Assembly (NCBI RefSeq): GCF_004797125.1
Contig: NZ_CP038810.1
Coordinates: forward strand, 1,674,001-1,738,000
Length of the DNA: 64,000 bases
Reading direction: 5' to 3'
Origin: Flavobacterium sangjuense
GTDB taxonomy: Bacteria > Bacteroidota > Bacteroidia > Flavobacteriales > Flavobacteriaceae
This document shows positions 40,721-62,053 of this stretch, piece by piece. The notes under the pieces were generated by a model. It was not told the origin of the DNA and ran no database searches. It worked only from the letters and a program-made list of their open reading frames with translations. Positions within the stretch are counted from its first letter, which is position 1; every line of letters starts with the position of its first letter. The position numbers and the translations under genes were made by a program.

Positions 40721-40748
40721 TGGAAGCTAATCCGGCTGTCCGCTATAT

Positions 40749-40810
40749 CTGTCATTGCGAGGTACGAAGCAATCTTTAATGGGATTGCCGCGGTTCTCTC
40801 GCAATGACAG
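40749..40810. repeat. Palindromic intergenic repeat (CATTGCGAG type)
   Basis: Outer arms CTGTCATTGCGAG (40749-40761) and CTCGCAATGACAG (40798-40810), exact complements; inner arms GCAATC / GATTGC. A widespread dispersed palindrome type. Located between convergent typA and the esterase gene. Confidence 0.85.
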
Positions 40811-40835
40811 GATGCCGCTTCCATCCGGGCTAGGG

Positions 40836-53180: not shown

Positions 53181-54239
53181 TTAGGACTTTTGCTCTTTAT
53201 TGAAATACACTAAGTAGTAATACATTTGTTTTTCTTCATCCCAACCTTTTTCTACAAATTTCTCGGCACTTTCAGGATTGATAAAGTCGAGTTTTATTTG
53301 GATATTGGTGTCCAGATTAATTACGTTTTTAATAGATCTTCGGGCATCAGAAACCGCATTATTTGCAATTGGAAACGAAGTAACATCTTCAATACTATAT
53401 TTCTCACCTTTATCAACTTTATAGTTTTTGAATTCCGGGATTAAGTCGGGATTATCCAAAACCTCATTCAGGAAATTGCTTTCTTCAAATTGATCGTTTT
53501 TGGCAAAATAATTCACCGAACGATTCATAAACATTACTTCTTCTTTTTTGTCTTCGGCAGGAAAAACAACATCTTTAGCAAATCCCTGGCAGAATTTCAA
53601 ATACTTTTTGGTAATGAAATTTTCATCCTGAAACGCATCAACAGAAAGAAAATGCTCCAACCAATAGCGTGTGTCATAACGATTGCTGTCGACACTTAAA
53701 ATCTTGTAGCCTTCTTCTTTTTTATAATTGAAAATCAGGCAGCCTTTGTCTAGTTTATTCAGATTGATGCCTTGTTGCAAAATCATTTCAAGCGATTTTC
53801 CTTTTTCTTCAAACTGCATAAAATCAGACATGATTTCACTTTTGAAAACACCAATAGCATCAACAACATTGTTATCGATACTTAAGTTGGTTAAATAGGT
53901 CACATAAACTTCTCCGTTCTTAATGTGCGGGTGATTTGATTGCTCAAAAAGATGGTTCGTAATCTTCTTTGAAACTTCGTGAATTTCACTTGGGTTTGTG
54001 AAAATTTCCGTTGCCAAGTTGAACATATCGTTGTATTCCAAATCAACTTCGTGGGCAAACTGAAAATAGTTCTCTTCTTTTTCGCGAAAGGATTTGAAGA
54101 AATATTCCTTTAGTAACGGAACAATTTCGTCATTTAAATTATAAGGCTGCTCCGAGAGAAATACCGATTCATTTCTGTTTTTGTTTCCAACTCGGTGTAT
54201 TGATAAACTCTCAATATGAGTGTTAAATAGGTTGATCAT
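53181..54239 (-). CDS. Nucleoid-associated protein (NdpA/YejK family)
   Basis: 352 residues of the NA37/NdpA family: MINLFNTHIESLSIHRVGNK start, LLKEYFFKSFREKEENYFQF, VTYLTNLSIDNNVVDAIGVFKSE and the C-terminal IQIKLDFINPESAEKFVEKGWD. The family binds nucleoid DNA; biochemical detail in Bacteroidetes is limited. Next gene upstream on the same strand is the S23-type gene inside its repeat bracket. Confidence 0.87.
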   Translation of the reverse strand: MINLFNTHIESLSIHRVGNKNRNESVFLSEQPYNLNDEIVPLLKEYFFKSFREKEENYFQFAHEVDLEYNDMFNLATEIFTNPSEIHEVSKKITNHLFEQSNHPHIKNGEVYVTYLTNLSIDNNVVDAIGVFKSEIMSDFMQFEEKGKSLEMILQQGINLNKLDKGCLIFNYKKEEGYKILSVDSNRYDTRYWLEHFLSVDAFQDENFITKKYLKFCQGFAKDVVFPAEDKKEEVMFMNRSVNYFAKNDQFEESNFLNEVLDNPDLIPEFKNYKVDKGEKYSIEDVTSFPIANNAVSDARRSIKNVINLDTNIQIKLDFINPESAEKFVEKGWDEEKQMYYYLVYFNKEQKS

Positions 54240-54248
54240 TTTGGTTTA

Positions 54249-54278
54249 AAGGTTCTAAGTTGCTAAGGTTCTGAGGTT
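54249..54278. repeat. 8-nt phrase array, left bracket of the S23-type gene
   Basis: Reads AAGGTTCT, AAGTTGCT, AAGGTTCT, GAGGTT. Reverse-complement partner at 54696-54725 with only two mismatches in 30. Confidence 0.85.
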
Positions 54279-54285
54279 CTAAGTT

Positions 54286-54645
54286 TTAATCTCTTTCTTT
54301 AATTTTTTTGATAAAAGAAACCAACATTCTTTCTAACTCTCTGGTGTCTTCGTATATTTTATTAAATTCTAATTCTGTTAAGTATTCTATATTTTTCCCG
54401 ATTTCTAATTGTGTTTGCAATTCAAACAATGAAGCAATGGATACGTTCAGAAATCTTAGGTATTCTTTGTTGCTGTCTCTTCCAAAACCTTCGGCGATGT
54501 TACTTGGAATCGATATTGAGCTTCGTCTTATTTGTGATGTTAATGTAAAAATTTCTTCTTTTGGAAAATTTTTAGTTGCAATGTAAATGTTTGTTGTTAA
54601 TGTCATGGACTTTTGCCATATCTGAAGATTTCTAAAATTGCTCAT
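54286..54645 (-). CDS. Four-helix bundle protein (S23 / 23S rRNA intervening-sequence type)
   Basis: 119 residues of the S23 family: MSNFRNLQIWQKSMTLTTNIY, TLTSQIRRSSISIPSNIAEGFGRDSNKEYLRFLNVSIASLFELQTQL and a final helix LERMLVSFIKKIKE. Homologues form pentameric barrels and include the Avd accessory factor of diversity-generating retroelements; the family name comes from ORFs in 23S rRNA intervening sequences. Here the gene is chromosomal, not in rRNA, and is tightly enclosed by two inverted 8-nt phrase arrays. Confidence 0.93.
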   Translation of the reverse strand: MSNFRNLQIWQKSMTLTTNIYIATKNFPKEEIFTLTSQIRRSSISIPSNIAEGFGRDSNKEYLRFLNVSIASLFELQTQLEIGKNIEYLTELEFNKIYEDTRELERMLVSFIKKIKERD

Positions 54646-54695
54646 TTTTATAGTTTTTAAATTTATTAAAGATAATAAAAATCTTATAAATTTAA

Positions 54696-54725
54696 AACCT
54701 TAGTACCTTAGCAACTTAGAACCTT
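54696..54725. repeat. 8-nt phrase array, right bracket of the S23-type gene
   Basis: On the minus strand reads AAGGTTCT, AAGTTGCT, AAGGTACT, AAGGTT; inverted copy of 54249-54278. Confidence 0.85.
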
Positions 54726-54738
54726 AGCTCCTTAACAG

Positions 54739-55275
54739 CTAATTCCAATTCTCTTCAAATCCGTAATCTTCAAAACTGTCATCACCACCAAAAGCATCCA
54801 AATCATCATCATCTAAATCATCTTCAAATTCAGAATAGAAATCTTCACTTTCCGCTTCGAACTCTTTTTCAGGCGCAATGGCAGGCAATTCACCATGAGA
54901 AAACAACAAACTCGGATAGGTTTCTCCGGCTTCAGCTTCTTCAACGGCAGCAAGTTCAACTAAGAATGTCCACATATTGATAAAATCATACACGTAGATA
55001 ATTTTCGTTTGGTCTTCACCAAGCAACAGATTTAAGGTGTAATCGCTCATTGTTTTTTGCTCGCCGGGAATATCACCTGTATCAAACATCGGAATCTCTT
55101 CTTCCTGATTCCAGGTGTCATCACAAGTATAAAACGAAGCCACTTCTAATCCGTCAAAACCAAAAGCATTAACGATGGCGTTGTGTAAATCTTCTAAAGT
55201 ATCTTCTTCCTGAATGGCAATATCTCTGAAAACATCTTCTTCTGCATCAAGAATAGCTCTGAATTTATAAATCAT
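54739..55275 (-). CDS. Plasmid pRiA4b ORF-3-like domain protein
   Basis: 178 residues: N-terminal beta-alpha domain (MIYKFRAILDAEEDVFRDIAIQEEDTLEDLHNAIVNAFGFDGLEVASFYTCDDTW) of the pRiA4b/IS1096-passenger type and a very acidic tail (DDLDDDDLDAFGGDDSFEDYG). Seen widely in Bacteroidetes chromosomes; function unknown. Starts after the S23 bracket. Confidence 0.8.
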   Translation of the reverse strand: MIYKFRAILDAEEDVFRDIAIQEEDTLEDLHNAIVNAFGFDGLEVASFYTCDDTWNQEEEIPMFDTGDIPGEQKTMSDYTLNLLLGEDQTKIIYVYDFINMWTFLVELAAVEEAEAGETYPSLLFSHGELPAIAPEKEFEAESEDFYSEFEDDLDDDDLDAFGGDDSFEDYGFEENWN

Positions 55276-55311
55276 AATCGTAATTTTTATAAGCGAGCAA
55301 AGATAAATTAT

Positions 55312-55345
55312 AATTCATCAATTACGAATTGCTAATTGCTAATTG
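55312..55345. repeat. 7-nt phrase array (AATTNNN type)
   Basis: On the minus strand reads AATTAGC, AATTAGC, AATTCGT, AATTGAT, G, AATT. Same phrase type as 15959-15986. Confidence 0.65.
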
Positions 55346-55561
55346 TTGAAAAGATTTTGCATCCTGAAAAACATCGACGAAAAGCATCAGATTTTGATTT
55401 TTTGTATGTCTATCGAGTTTTGCGGTAGTTTACCGATTAAGTTAGATTTAGAATTGGCGAACAACTAATTTAGCTTCAGTTAATTAGAGAAACAACAAGA
55501 AAACTACTGAGTAGTATTCTTTTAAAGATAAATATCCTGTCAGATAATTAATAATTCAAAC

Positions 55562-55598
55562 GAAAAAATCCTGTTCTAATCGAACAGGTTTTTTTTTG
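55562..55598 (+). terminator. Orphan terminator-like hairpin upstream of the TonB receptor
   Basis: Stem CCTGTTC / GAACAGG, 5-base loop, A-run before and ten Ts after (55589-55597). No plus-strand gene precedes it for more than 10 kb of minus-strand genes, so it may end an unannotated small RNA or read-through. Confidence 0.7.
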
Positions 55599-55627
55599 CA
55601 GTTCATCCCCAAAAAATAACAATTCGG
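55598..55627 (+). promoter_or_regulatory. Predicted LytTR binding site, TonB receptor promoter
   Basis: Half-sites GCAGTTCAT (55598-55606) and ACAATTCGG (55619-55627) as direct repeats with a 12-base spacer, the arrangement of LytTR regulator sites. A -7-like CAACTTTG lies at 55661-55668. Closely matches 57901-57930. Confidence 0.6.
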
Positions 55628-55688
55628 TAAACTTATATTGTATAGTTTTAGTCCTTGATACAACTTTGCTGCATCAAAATTAAAACAC

Positions 55689-57830: not shown

Positions 57831-57899
57831 AGGATAAGGGACTAGGGAAAAGGGATTAGAAAGACTTATCTCTTATTACTTATCCCTAATCCCTAAATC
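57831..57899. repeat. 7-nt phrase array, both orientations (AGGGANN type)
   Basis: Left half reads AGGATA, AGGGACT, AGGGAAA, AGGGATT; right half, complemented, reads AGGGATT, AGGGATA, AGTAATA, AGAGATA. It starts at the base after the TonB receptor stop and ends directly before the LytTR-type site. Confidence 0.7.
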
Positions 57900-57900
57900 A

Positions 57901-57930
57901 ACAGTTCATCCATCAAAAATGACAGTTCGG
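57901..57930 (+). promoter_or_regulatory. Predicted LytTR binding site, signalling operon promoter
   Basis: Direct repeats ACAGTTCAT (57901-57909) and ACAGTTCGG (57922-57930), 12-base spacer; both fit the LytTR half-site pattern closely. -7 box TACTTTTG at 57964-57971, the same offset as in the TonB receptor promoter. Confidence 0.65.
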
Positions 57931-57963
57931 TAACTATAAATTTTTAAGTGACCAAAACCAATA

Positions 57964-57971
57964 TACTTTTG
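57964..57971 (+). promoter_or_regulatory. -7 box of the signalling operon
   Basis: TACTTTTG matches TAnnTTTG; no TTG at the expected upstream spacing, as expected for an activator-dependent promoter. Confidence 0.55.
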
Positions 57972-58021
57972 AACCATAAATTAAAAGAGTTTTAATCATC
58001 ATAAATCTAAACAGCAAAATC

Positions 58022-58862: not shown

Positions 58863-60194
58863 ATGAAGCAATTAGTAAAAGAAATTCCAAGAGCAATTAT
58901 TCTATCAATAGTCATTTTTTTTGTACTGTTATTGATAAGGCTTATTACAGGAAATACGATTCGGTTTGACTATGGATTCTTGGTGTATTTTGGTTACACT
59001 ATGCTATACGGACTTTCGTTATATTTTGCTAATGCTGCAATTTTCATCTATTTAGACAAAGTTTTTAAAGCCAATCGGTTTACGCCCAAAAGGATATTAA
59101 TTGGATTCTTAGCTTCTTTTCTGATTTCGATTTTGGTTATTTTTTTACTGCGAATTTTTGAAGATGTACTAGTCGAAGGAATTTCATTCAGCGCATTCTT
59201 AAGTAAGGAACAGTTGTCCAATTATCTTGTAGCCATCATTTTGACTTTCATCGTTACTTTGGCTTTCCACGCATTTTATTTTTATAAAGCATACGCTGAA
59301 AGCAAAGTTAAAGAACAAAAGATTATCGCCGGAACAGCTTCGGCGCAATTTGAAAGTTTAAAAAACCAAATCGATCCGCATTTCCTGTTCAATAGTTTGA
59401 ATGTGTTGAGTTCGTTGATAGAAGAAAACCCGGATAATGCACAAAAGTTCACTACTTCCTTATCTAAAATCTATCGCTATGTTTTAGAGCAGAAAGACAA
59501 AGAACTGGTTTCGGTTTCAGAGGAATTGGCTTTCGCCAAAACGTATATGAATCTTTTAAAAATGCGTTTTGAAAATAGTATCACTTATGAATTGCCTGAA
59601 GGTTTTGACAATCCGGAAGCCAAAGTTGTACCGCTTTCGTTACAACTTTTATTAGAAAATACGATTAAGCACAATGTGGTTAGTGAACAAAAACCATTGC
59701 ATATTAAAATTTATATCGAAAATAATTATCTCATCGTTGAGAACAATCTTCAAAAGAAAGAAGTGCTGCAGGATAGAAGAGGCGTTGGCTTGCAAAACAT
59801 CGTCAACCGTTACGGACTGATTTCGGAACGTAAAATGCTGATTGAGGAAAGCCCTGATTTTTTTAAAGTAAAAATTCCAATATTAACAAAACAGATTGCT
59901 TTTATGGAAACACAAAATATATACAACGAAAACATGGCTTTTATGCGGGCCAAAGATCGCGTAGAAAAACTCAAAGGATTTTATGGCAATTTGATTTCAT
60001 ATTGCTGTGTGATTCCGGTACTGGTATTTATAAACCTAAAAACAGGAGGATTTCAATGGTTTTGGTTTCCAATGTTTGGATGGGGAATGGGAGTAACGTT
60101 CCATGCATTCGAAACTTTCGGCTACGGAAAATCCTGGGAAGAAAAGAAAATTCGGGAAATTTTAAACAAAGACAAACAAACTAAATATGAATAA
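58863..60194 (+). CDS. LytS-type sensor histidine kinase with C-terminal 2TM domain
   Basis: 443 residues: four membrane segments (about 10-28, 38-62, 78-98, 121-142), then a His_kinase (LytS-type) domain with NQIDPHFLFNSLN (His173) and SRIYRYVLEQKDKE-like region, ATPase part LQLLLENTIKHNVV and DRRGVGLQNIVNRYG, and from about 352 a 2TM domain (RVEKLKGFYGNLISY ... FHAFETFGYGKSWEEKKI). Fusion of the kinase to a 2TM domain is unusual and the following three genes are stand-alone 2TM proteins. Probable partner of the LytTR regulator downstream. Confidence 0.9.
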   Translation: MKQLVKEIPRAIILSIVIFFVLLLIRLITGNTIRFDYGFLVYFGYTMLYGLSLYFANAAIFIYLDKVFKANRFTPKRILIGFLASFLISILVIFLLRIFEDVLVEGISFSAFLSKEQLSNYLVAIILTFIVTLAFHAFYFYKAYAESKVKEQKIIAGTASAQFESLKNQIDPHFLFNSLNVLSSLIEENPDNAQKFTTSLSKIYRYVLEQKDKELVSVSEELAFAKTYMNLLKMRFENSITYELPEGFDNPEAKVVPLSLQLLLENTIKHNVVSEQKPLHIKIYIENNYLIVENNLQKKEVLQDRRGVGLQNIVNRYGLISERKMLIEESPDFFKVKIPILTKQIAFMETQNIYNENMAFMRAKDRVEKLKGFYGNLISYCCVIPVLVFINLKTGGFQWFWFPMFGWGMGVTFHAFETFGYGKSWEEKKIREILNKDKQTKYE

Positions 60195-60196
60195 AA

Positions 60197-60275
60197 AAGG
60201 TGCTAAGGCACTGAGTGGCTAAGGTTCTAAGTAAAAAAACATCAGAGTCTCAGAGCCTCAGAACCTCAAAACCTC
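60197..60275. repeat. 8-nt phrase array, both orientations (RAGGNNCT type)
   Basis: Left half reads AAGGTGCT, AAGGCACT, GAGTGGCT, AAGGTTCT; right half, complemented, reads GAGGTTTT, GAGGTTCT, GAGGCTCT, GAGACTCT. Can fold as a hairpin. Located within the operon between the kinase and first 2TM gene. Confidence 0.75.
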
Positions 60276-60284
60276 AAAAAAAAT

Positions 60285-60584
60285 ATGGAACAATTTAATC
60301 AAGAATTCGAAAGATACCAACGTGCTCAAAAGCAGGTTGAAGAAATCAAAGGTTTTTACGGACATTTACTTTCTTATGTATTAGTGATGCTCTTTCTTAT
60401 GTTCATCAACTTAAGATATTCACCACAATATTTGTGGTTCTTTTGGCCAATGTTAGGTTGGGGAATAGGACTGTTATTTCACGGACTAAAAGCGTTTAAC
60501 TACACGCCATTCCTGGGAAAAGAGTGGGAACAAAGAAAAATAAAAGAATTTATGGATCAGGAAAAACAAAACAAATATGAATAA
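60285..60584 (+). CDS. 2TM domain protein (copy 1)
   Basis: 99 residues, one 2TM domain: VEEIKGFYGHLLSYVLVMLFLMFINLR and a second helix LWFFWPMLGWGIGLLFHGLKAF, then the charged tail GKEWEQRKIKEFMDQEKQNK. Most similar in tail to copy 2. Small inner-membrane protein of unknown function; overlaps copy 2 by 8 bases (ATGAATAA). Confidence 0.85.
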   Translation: MEQFNQEFERYQRAQKQVEEIKGFYGHLLSYVLVMLFLMFINLRYSPQYLWFFWPMLGWGIGLLFHGLKAFNYTPFLGKEWEQRKIKEFMDQEKQNKYE

Positions 60585-60897
60585 TTATAGCCTAAGTCCG
60601 GACGAAATAAAATACCAGCAGGCATTAAAACGTGTCAAAAGGATAAAAGGATTTTATACACATGCTGTAGTTTATGTAGTAATTAATATTGTAATCATCT
60701 TTTCAAAAATTAATTTTACAGGCAATGGTACCTGGAATTTTGAATTGAGAAATTTATCCACAGCATTTTTTTGGGGAATCGGATTACTCGCACACGGAAT
60801 GTCAGTCTTCATGCCAACATTGCTAATGGGCAAAGACTGGGAAGAAAGAAAAATAAAAGAGTTTATGGATCAGGAAAAACAAAATAAATATGAATAA
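60577..60897 (+). CDS. 2TM domain protein (copy 2)
   Basis: 106 residues: MNNYSLSPDEIKYQQALKRVKRIKGFYTHAVVY, second helix with FFWGIGLLAHGMSVF, tail MGKDWEERKIKEFMDQEKQNKYE. First ~28 codons are nearly identical at DNA level to copy 3, indicating a recent duplication or conversion. Overlaps both neighbours by 8 bases, so the three genes are translationally coupled. Confidence 0.87.
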   Translation: MNNYSLSPDEIKYQQALKRVKRIKGFYTHAVVYVVINIVIIFSKINFTGNGTWNFELRNLSTAFFWGIGLLAHGMSVFMPTLLMGKDWEERKIKEFMDQEKQNKYE

Positions 60898-61201
60898 TTA
60901 TAACCTAAGTCCGGACGAAATAAAATACCAGCAGGCATTAAAGCGTGTCAAAAGAATCAAAGGATTTTACTCGCATTTGGTGGTATATGTTGTAATCAAT
61001 GTGATGTTGCTTATTGTGAATTATAAAAATTCAAGTGAAGGCTGGAGATGGGAAATGTTTGTTACTCCTTTATTTTGGGGAATCGGTGTACTGGCGCACG
61101 CACTTTCCGTTTTTCTGCCAACCATACTCATGGGTAAAGACTGGGAAGAAAGAAAGATTAAGGAACTAATGGAAAAGGAAAGACAAAATAAGTGGGAGTA
61201 G
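60890..61201 (+). CDS. 2TM domain protein (copy 3)
   Basis: 103 residues: MNNYNLSPDEIKYQQALKRVKRIKGFYSHLVVY, second helix FWGIGVLAHALSVF, tail MGKDWEERKIKELMEKERQNKWE. Tandem paralogue of copy 2. Followed by a phrase array and then the LytTR regulator. Confidence 0.87.
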   Translation: MNNYNLSPDEIKYQQALKRVKRIKGFYSHLVVYVVINVMLLIVNYKNSSEGWRWEMFVTPLFWGIGVLAHALSVFLPTILMGKDWEERKIKELMEKERQNKWE

Positions 61202-61290
61202 AAAGGTGCTATGGCACTAAATAGCTAAGGTTCTAAGTAAAAAAAACCTCAGTACCTTAGAGCCTCAGAACCTCAGAACCTCAGAACCTC
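61202..61290. repeat. 8-nt phrase array, both orientations (RAGGNNCT type)
   Basis: Left half AAGGTGCT, ATGGCACT, AAATAGCT, AAGGTTCT; right half complemented reads GAGGTTCT three times, then GAGGCTCT, AAGGTACT. Immediately after the stop of 2TM copy 3 and 8 bases before the LytTR regulator start. Confidence 0.75.
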
Positions 61291-61297
61291 AAAAAAT

Positions 61298-62053
61298 ATG
61301 AACATCATCATCATCGAAGACGAAAAACCCGCAGCACGTTTACTACAGCGTAAAGTGGAGAAATTAGGTTTGCAGGTAAATCAAATGCTGCATTCTGTGG
61401 AAGAATCCATTCATTGGTTTAATTCGAATCCGCATCCCGATTTGATTTTCCTTGACATACAATTATCCGATGGTTTGTCGTTCGAAATCTTTGAAACCAT
61501 TGATATCAAAAGTGCAGTGATTTTCACGACGGCTTATGACGAATATGCGCTGCGTGCTTTCAAACTGAATAGCATTGATTATTTGCTTAAGCCAATTGAC
61601 GAAGACGATTTAGAAACCGCTGTCAACAAATTCAAAGCGCGAAATATCAGTGCGCCCAATTTGTCGCTCGACTTTGAAATGATAAAGAAAATGCTGGTAA
61701 ACCCAATGGACAGAAACTACAAAAAACGTTTCACTATCAAAATGGGACAGCAGTTAAAGATGATTAACATTGAAGAAGTAGAATGTTTCTATAGCGAAAA
61801 CAAAGGAACCTACCTACACACTTTTGACAACCGTGATTATCTTCTAGACAACACTTTGGAACAACTCGAAACCGAACTTGACCCAAAGGATTTCTACCGT
61901 GTTTCCCGCAAATTCATCATCCCGATGAAAGGAATAAAAGAAATCCAGATTTACAGCAACTCAAGATTAAAAGTCATTCTTCCCACTTATAAAGACGATG
62001 AGGTTATTGTAGCACGCGAACGGGTGAATGATTTTAAGGAATGGTTGGGTTAA
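61298..62053 (+). CDS. LytTR-family response regulator
   Basis: 251 residues: receiver with EDEKPAARLL pocket, phospho-acceptor Asp53 in LIFLDIQLSDG, FTTAYDEYALRAF and the lysine in YLLKPID; C-terminal LytTR DNA-binding domain from about 145 (KRFTIKMGQQLKMINIEEVECFYSE ... FYRVSRKFIIPMKGIKEI). Partner of the LytS kinase in this operon. Direct-repeat sites of LytTR type lie upstream of its own operon and of the TonB receptor, so it probably autoregulates and controls that receptor. Confidence 0.93.
   Translation: MNIIIIEDEKPAARLLQRKVEKLGLQVNQMLHSVEESIHWFNSNPHPDLIFLDIQLSDGLSFEIFETIDIKSAVIFTTAYDEYALRAFKLNSIDYLLKPIDEDDLETAVNKFKARNISAPNLSLDFEMIKKMLVNPMDRNYKKRFTIKMGQQLKMINIEEVECFYSENKGTYLHTFDNRDYLLDNTLEQLETELDPKDFYRVSRKFIIPMKGIKEIQIYSNSRLKVILPTYKDDEVIVARERVNDFKEWLG

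Follow-up and report, generated by a model that had tools for sequence, protein, structure and literature searches.

S23 proteins (IVPs), for which we know of no established function, are encoded within intervening sequences (IVSs) of the 23S rRNA of Coxiella, Leptospira and other bacteria, and cyanobacterial STRRs are intergenic tandem 7-mers. In Coxiella the IVS is 428 nt long, has a 28-bp terminal stem that is cut by RNase III, and carries tandem heptamers (GACAGAT) of variable copy number upstream of an S23 ORF described as undergoing reductive evolution (PMC4990558, in the part of the text available). Intergenic heptamer arrays have been documented in Xanthomonas and Nostoc, where two Xanthomonas genomes contain 70 and 75 convergent heptamer pairs, most of them located between genes that run the same way (PMC4692102), and TAACTGA repeats in Beggiatoaceae, Cyanobacteria and Bacteroidetes (PMC4679880). 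As far as these two papers are accessible, neither connects its arrays with S23 and the term 'S23' is absent from both texts. Here we report that S23 genes lying between bacterial genes are very often enclosed by inverted, locus-specific arrays of 7-8-nt words, which suggests that the bracketed S23 gene is an unrecognised kind of small genetic element. In the literature searched, in part the top of long hit lists and with few subscription papers, no paper tied S23 to word arrays, the Coxiella remark apart, and a widespread element centred on S23 and enclosed by inverted arrays of locus-specific words appears to be undescribed. S23 genes are very common, and heptamer arrays are common and of unexplained origin, so that a link between them offers each a partner that can be put to the test.

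The element was studied in a window of Flavobacterium sangjuense DNA (contig NZ_CP038810.1, positions 1,674,001 to 1,738,000), by which we mean the whole 64,000-nt stretch analysed. Its S23 gene (54286..54645, minus strand; 119 aa) matched PF05635 with 136.4 bits (curated cut-off 33.8) and TIGR02436 with 133.9 bits (curated cut-off 24) in profile searches, confirming the S23-type four-helix-bundle gene recognised in a first-pass annotation of the sequence. The PDB sequence matches are 2gsc and 2rld, the former an S23 structure named XCC0516, from which name an X. campestris origin was read. Downstream lies a gene for an NA37 nucleoid-associated protein (53181..54239, minus strand; PF04245) and upstream a PRiA4_ORF3-like gene (54739..55275, minus strand; PF07929), both named from Pfam; the three genes run in the same direction, and the word arrays and S23 together occupy the whole gap between the two hosts. 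The arm 3' of S23 (54249..54285, plus strand) consists of the words AAGGTTCT AAGTTGCT AAGGTTCT GAGGTTCT AAG, abuts the S23 stop codon and lies 9 nt ahead of the NA37 start codon. The 5' arm (54689..54733, minus strand), a paired part (54689-54725) plus one extra word, is 43 bases upstream of the S23 ATG, from which it is separated by an A+T-rich leader (54646..54688, minus strand), and its outer end is 5 nt past the stop codon of the upstream gene. The inverted flanks (54249-54285, plus strand; 54725-54689, minus strand) match over 37 bp with 4 mismatches, the first 30 bp having the 2 mismatches already counted in the first-pass annotation. Its 8-nt phrases, too, proved to be truly enriched: the pattern RAGNNNCTRAGNNNCTRAG, with at most 1 mismatch, has 18 matches in the window against 0.22 expected from shuffles, and 17 of the 18 fall at three places (54249-54733, 60197-60275 and 61219-61290). 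The genome has two PF05635 matches in total, and the second (at 1920603) is bracketed as well, by a word that differs from that of the window. The S23 element in the window had no match in Rfam, and its protein had none in PADLOC or, by tblastn, in phage records; in Flavobacterium columnare a four-helix-bundle gene is listed inside a supposed phage region (PMC5524665, available text).

The S23-encoding 23S rRNA IVSs of Coxiella, Leptospira and others resemble this element, as far as the accessible descriptions go, in the protein family and in having the ORF within complementary ends, and the comparison made at first reading is apt, given the 28-bp terminal stem and the GACAGAT heptamers upstream of the ORF (PMC4990558). 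The element nevertheless lies between two protein genes and not in rRNA, its arms are arrays of 7-8-nt words that vary by locus, gene-less forms of it exist, and S23 at the NA37 site is under purifying selection. It is best read as a probable intercistronic relative of the S23-bearing rRNA IVSs. The rRNA insertions of CPR bacteria were also compared (PMC11270868, in part).

Two gene-less arrays, which the first reading had placed at 60197 and 61202, are indeed gene-less, and each is an inverted pair of the same word as at the S23 site. One (60197..60275) lies in the gap that follows a histidine-kinase gene (stop 60194) and precedes a 2TM gene (start 60285); the other (61203..61293) has a 2TM gene before it (stop 61201) and a LytTR response-regulator gene after it (start 61298). 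Besides the S23 site we picked 15 gene-less clusters of the window word, 2 in the window and 13 elsewhere in the 3.13-Mb genome: 10 are convergent pairs, none is divergent and 5 are single arms, and 8 have called genes no more than 25 nt away on both flanks, the rest on a single flank. The stretch at 58863-62053 is itself a row of consecutive genes, namely a C-terminal-2TM histidine kinase, three tandem 2TM-domain genes and the LytTR response regulator, with gene-less word arrays in two of its junctions.

S23 (PF05635) matches were found in 232 of 296 sampled genomes of the phylum (Bacteroidota) and in 60 of 61 genomes of the genus. From these genus and phylum genomes, plus plasmids, a first set of loci was drawn in which 144 S23 hits gave 127 distinct genes, 125 of them with full 250-nt flanks; the controls were other genes of the same stretches, 386 after exclusion of 107 of 493 as S23 neighbours. 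The second set was the best 80 of the listed loci in named genomes (83 ORFs in 79 of the 80, 77 with full flanks) from Bacteroidota, Chloroflexota, Planctomycetota, Acidobacteria, Cyanobacteria, Proteobacteria, an archaeal MAG and others; it partly overlaps the first, the arms of L266 being those of L019 and a few other rows possibly coming from the same species. As S23 rows were taken best-scoring first, the samples lean towards canonical members. At an inverted flank match score of at least 14 in both sets, brackets were found around 73 of 125 S23 genes and 7 of 386 controls in set 1 (Fisher P about 1e-45), and around 32 of 77 and 4 of 147 in set 2 (P about 2e-13). S23 genes are therefore bracketed far more often than other genes, an enrichment that the first-pass annotation had put forward as a check. 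When set 1 arms were swapped between loci, 12/625 combinations reached the same score. About half of the S23 genes pass the bracket test and the other half fail it (52/125 below threshold in set 1, 45/77 in set 2), many of the latter having short brackets by eye that were left out of the counts. Of the four S23 genes examined on cyanobacterial plasmids, the two from Nostoc have strong heptamer arms, scoring 22 and 30, and the other two fall below threshold. Among the 20 S23 loci scanned, of about 200, none had a match in Rfam.

Across the 73 bracketed loci of set 1, up-arm periodicity was strongest at 7 (26 loci), 8 (23) or 14 (15), with another value in 9, and shuffled up-arms gave no peak at such periods. 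Among the dinucleotides of the up-arms AG shows the strongest enrichment (1.57 fold in set 1), and AG words are directed inward on both strands, with the same trend in set 2. The G-rich arm comes first in 62 loci against 9, with 2 ties, in set 1 and in 26 against 5 in set 2. An arm polarity directed by S23 was nonetheless rejected, since a palindrome is identical on both strands and these counts mean only that AG words point inward. Each locus has its own word: in one genome (G036) six of its nine S23 genes were inspected, and their words are visibly different. Here, then, arrays bracket S23 and the word varies by locus, unlike the intergenic tandem 7-mers that they otherwise resemble, to judge from the accessible texts on Xanthomonas, Nostoc and TAACTGA arrays. 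Mean arm-to-arm identity is 0.88 at the best register, a choice which favours that value, against 0.65 when slid by one word, and the arms' own register beats the slid version by at least 0.15 in 50 of 72 loci with a score of at least 16. At one locus (L138, G010:C1:1731453-1741737) S23 is flanked by long GTGAATA/GTGAGTG arrays in direct and inverted order.

The element is placed tightly. In set 1 the upstream stop codon and the up-arm are a median of 2 nt apart (measured at 68 of the 73 positive loci), the down-arm and the next start codon a median of 7 nt (measured at 60 of the 73), and the leader between arm and S23 ATG has a median of 36 nt. The neighbours of S23 run in the same direction at 119 of 138 loci, against 426 of 619 control triples (P = 2e-5), and within such pairs S23 follows them in 112 of 119 cases, against 370 of 426 control genes (P = 0.03 jointly; neither set reaches significance by itself, P = 0.16 and 0.11). 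The co-directionality of S23 with both neighbours (53/64 versus 242/402 control triples in set 1, 59/74 versus 128/217 in set 2) is thus mostly due to S23 sitting in same-direction gene pairs. We rejected the view that 112/119, set against 50:50, is decisive, the control genes being only slightly lower. Further host gaps are presumably groES-groEL, fadB-fadA and a nuoD gap, which we take to be such from the protein ends; on a Nostoc plasmid, S23 lies within an annotated ribonucleotide reductase pair, in the opposite direction.

At the NA37 site, compared in 60 genomes of the genus including our own, 20 have a near-full-length S23 (one of them, L107, without the first 17 profile positions), 3 a fragment and 37 no S23 match, so that S23 or a remnant is present in 23/60 and the gene is not a fixture of the locus in all relatives, a case that the first-pass annotation had named as refuting. 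The NA37 tree requires at least 9 changes in S23 presence when fragments are counted and 10 when only the intact class is, 6 of these 10 being forced by well-supported branches. In the S23 tree, 22 of 22 rows from the site form one clade among 202 rows (one change versus the 180 others), and five of six named sites have S23 rows forming one clade each relative to the other named sites. From the single clade and the pattern of presence and absence it follows that S23 at the NA37 site is one old insertion, inherited vertically and repeatedly lost; losses can explain the 37 S23-less sites, S23 there being one clade. In 14 of these 37 the gap holds a palindrome of other sequence (score at least 12), and others are plain short gaps. 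The orthologues at the site have a median dN/dS of about 0.14 (46 pairs with dS between 0.1 and 1.2, out of 171 possible), indicating purifying selection. Their arms match their own partner better than the arms of other species (19 orthologues, permutation P = 5e-5), as they do at two other sites (P = 0.006, 7 orthologues; P = 0.009, 5 orthologues), but without significance at the groEL (P = 0.28) and pyrF-like (P = 0.87) sites, each with 4 orthologues. Both arms are therefore rewritten together between orthologues while S23 stays conserved. Inverted repeats with free sequence and a kept mutual match open the question of RNA pairing versus DNA copying to direct experiment.

Arrays were also compared with S23 presence across genomes. 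Of the 248 spacers sampled from four genomes with S23, 15 held tandem arrays at lags 7 and 8, and of the 421 sampled from six genomes without PF05635 none did, at a lower threshold set on the second run (10/248 and 0/421 at the stricter threshold of the first). The sample comprises only 10 phylogenetically uneven genomes, one of the six S23-free ones being of the same genus; PF05635 absence was rechecked in all six. The window, where 6 of 31 spacers are positive, was excluded; one of the 15 positive spacers adjoins an S23-like ORF. At other lags, with the same threshold, there was 1 array in the S23-bearing and 3 in the S23-free samples. Among the 296 genomes, any of three exact words occurred in 75/232 S23-bearing and 5/64 S23-free genomes (P = 5e-5), S23-free here meaning absence from the list of PF05635-matched genomes. 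Two of the three single-word tests were not significant (P = 0.08 and 0.23); the third word had been picked up in a mirror-control column, and the word counts include the S23 brackets themselves. The clearest exception is G227 of the phylum sample, which has no PF05635 match yet shows clear runs of two heptamer words. The link between S23 and arrays across genomes is thus suggestive and not strict, on counts uncorrected for descent. A search for bAvd (PF22296), as a possible substitute in S23-free genomes with words, gave no matches in 11 genomes, a result that carries no weight since the profile matched no control either.

Our first choice of explanation, held tentatively and at rather less than even confidence, is a small intercistronic element made of S23 and two inverted locus-specific word arrays, which would work like an rRNA IVS but in mRNA. 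Sitting as a rule from one gene's stop codon to the next start in a same-direction pair, it would be read through; its arms would fold in the transcript with the S23 cistron in the loop, bringing the upstream stop and the downstream start together, so that the insertion might do little harm. Such tolerance may be the reason for the pairing, S23 would be expressed together with the host operon, and the folded element might be excised by RNase III. The inverted-flank enrichment in both sets, the tight stop/start placement of the arms, the same-direction neighbours with S23 following them and the own-partner matching at the NA37 site all point this way, as do predicted folds with paired arms (z = -5.1 for the window; 67/73 loci, partly by construction as loci were picked for inverted flanks) and the occurrence of the same protein family within rRNA between complementary ends cut by RNase III (PMC4990558, available part). 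However, a stem selected as RNA should give more G-U than A-C mismatches, and this excess is absent: in set 1 the counts are 56 versus 85 at an inverted-repeat score of at least 14 (P = 0.018), opposite to expectation, and 74 versus 94 (at least 12), 46 versus 65 (at least 16) and 21 versus 31 (at least 20), not significant, and in set 2 they are 28 versus 29. This counts against selection on an RNA stem, which as a sole cause is unsupported by the counts, and is the outcome expected of DNA-level copying. S23 is, moreover, hardly more co-oriented than ordinary genes of same-direction runs, which led us to lower our estimate for the mRNA reading slightly and to raise that for a DNA-level role slightly. 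The 36-nt median leader leaves room for a promoter of S23's own, 5/15 gene-less array sites of the genome are single-armed, pairing alone leaves the tandem-word form of the arms unexplained, own-partner matching failed to reach significance at two sites (groEL and pyrF-like), and many S23 genes are sub-threshold. Possible, if doubtful, is that S23 acts at the DNA level as a trans-acting partner of the arrays, a transposase-free analogue of RAYTs and their REPINs: the pentamer would bind or stabilise folded or slipped arrays, which host enzymes would extend, copy and rewrite, so that the two arms remain similar and arrays without a gene can spread or persist. This would accord with the spacer arrays (15/248 versus 0/421), the three-word survey (75/232 versus 5/64), the missing G-U excess, arms that differ in both halves between orthologues while S23 is conserved, and arms that match at one register (0.88 versus 0.65). 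It is weakened by the 10 uneven genomes and second-run threshold, by five S23-free genomes with words (G227 in runs), by two non-significant single-word tests, by a third word from the mirror-control column and counts that include S23 brackets, and by the many arrays in a genome with only 2 PF05635 matches; we also know of no enzymatic site in S23. As to the self-maintaining element that the first-pass annotation envisaged, upkeep by S23 acting on the arrays would fit the genome comparison, but words occur in some PF05635-free genomes as well. REPINs/RAYTs are alike in being short inverted intergenic elements with a low-copy gene suspected as trans-acting partner, and unlike in their tyrosine transposase, which is lacking here, and in having one conserved palindrome instead of words (PMC3116915, in part).

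An idea that goes further, and that we consider unlikely, is that S23 proteins write or maintain 7-8-nt words that are re-copied as inverted pairs in intercistronic gaps, the word being site-specific; if so, S23 would be the missing partner of the cyanobacterial, Xanthomonas and Bacteroidota heptamer arrays and the rRNA IVS one special case of such an element. Word writing by a reverse transcriptase, Avd- or telomerase-like, is unsupported in our genome, which has no RVT_1 match (three control genomes were positive), in contrast to DGRs; the window protein does weakly match the model of the related DGR family Avd (32 bits, cut-off 80), with which we compared it (PMC10053308, in part). It is improbable that the arrays merely reflect replication slippage or template switching at quasi-palindromes in short gaps, with S23 a passenger surviving there. 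Seven-nt repeats are reported to be unusually frequent in bacterial spacers, with polymerase slippage put forward (PMC4692102, accessible text), and the arms look like homogenised copies with no RNA bias; such slippage does not, however, predict that S23 rather than other genes is enclosed (controls 7/386), nor that arrays are missing from the sampled S23-free spacers. We give little credence to the words being binding sites of an S23 pentamer, one subunit per word, that autoregulates S23 and the host operon: the 7-8-nt spacing is regular and Xanthomonas S23 is a homopentamer (PMC4990558, available part), but words vary among the loci of a single genome, and also among orthologues whose S23 proteins are similar, making recognition of a fixed sequence unlikely. 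Least probable of all is a classical mobile element whose mobility gene would be S23 and whose terminal inverted repeats would be the arrays. The patchy occurrence at the NA37 site (S23 or remnant in 23/60) and the gene-less forms would suit it, and of the mobile element first proposed there remain gene-less arrays of similar architecture and placement, although no movement was seen. The transposon-like ends implied by that proposal did not survive comparison: unlike those of a transposon/MITE pair, the brackets are locus-specific, no terminal repeat is common to the family and words differ between copies in one genome. S23 forms one clade each at five of six named sites, neither transposase nor reverse transcriptase lies in the element, the genome has no RVT_1 match, and the REPs that surround its only Y1 transposase match are unrelated.

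That match (L375, G000:C1 around 2342127) is RAYT-like, and the many copies of ATCCCGTTAGGGAT / GGGTAG around it form a REP-like set with no relation to the 8-nt arrays; a RAYT transposase as array maker was rejected, the REPs of this genome differing from the arrays. Two genomes with Y1_Tnp matches and no PF05635 (G147 and G098) had no array in their sampled spacers. Among S23-less NA37 gaps, seven (L097, L098, L111, L187, L188, L192 and L198) share a different hairpin, about CCAAGAT ... ATCTTGG, which upstream of NA37 is possibly a terminator or attenuator, and in two others (L104 and L108) palindromes of CCCTCTCC / GGAGAGGG stand in place of S23. Elsewhere in the window, two further gaps hold tandem arrays of other words (55276-55688, AATTGCT; 57831-58021, CCCTAAT), and a Flavo-1 RNA (RF01705, 58.6 bits) lies at 40725-40835 on the minus strand.
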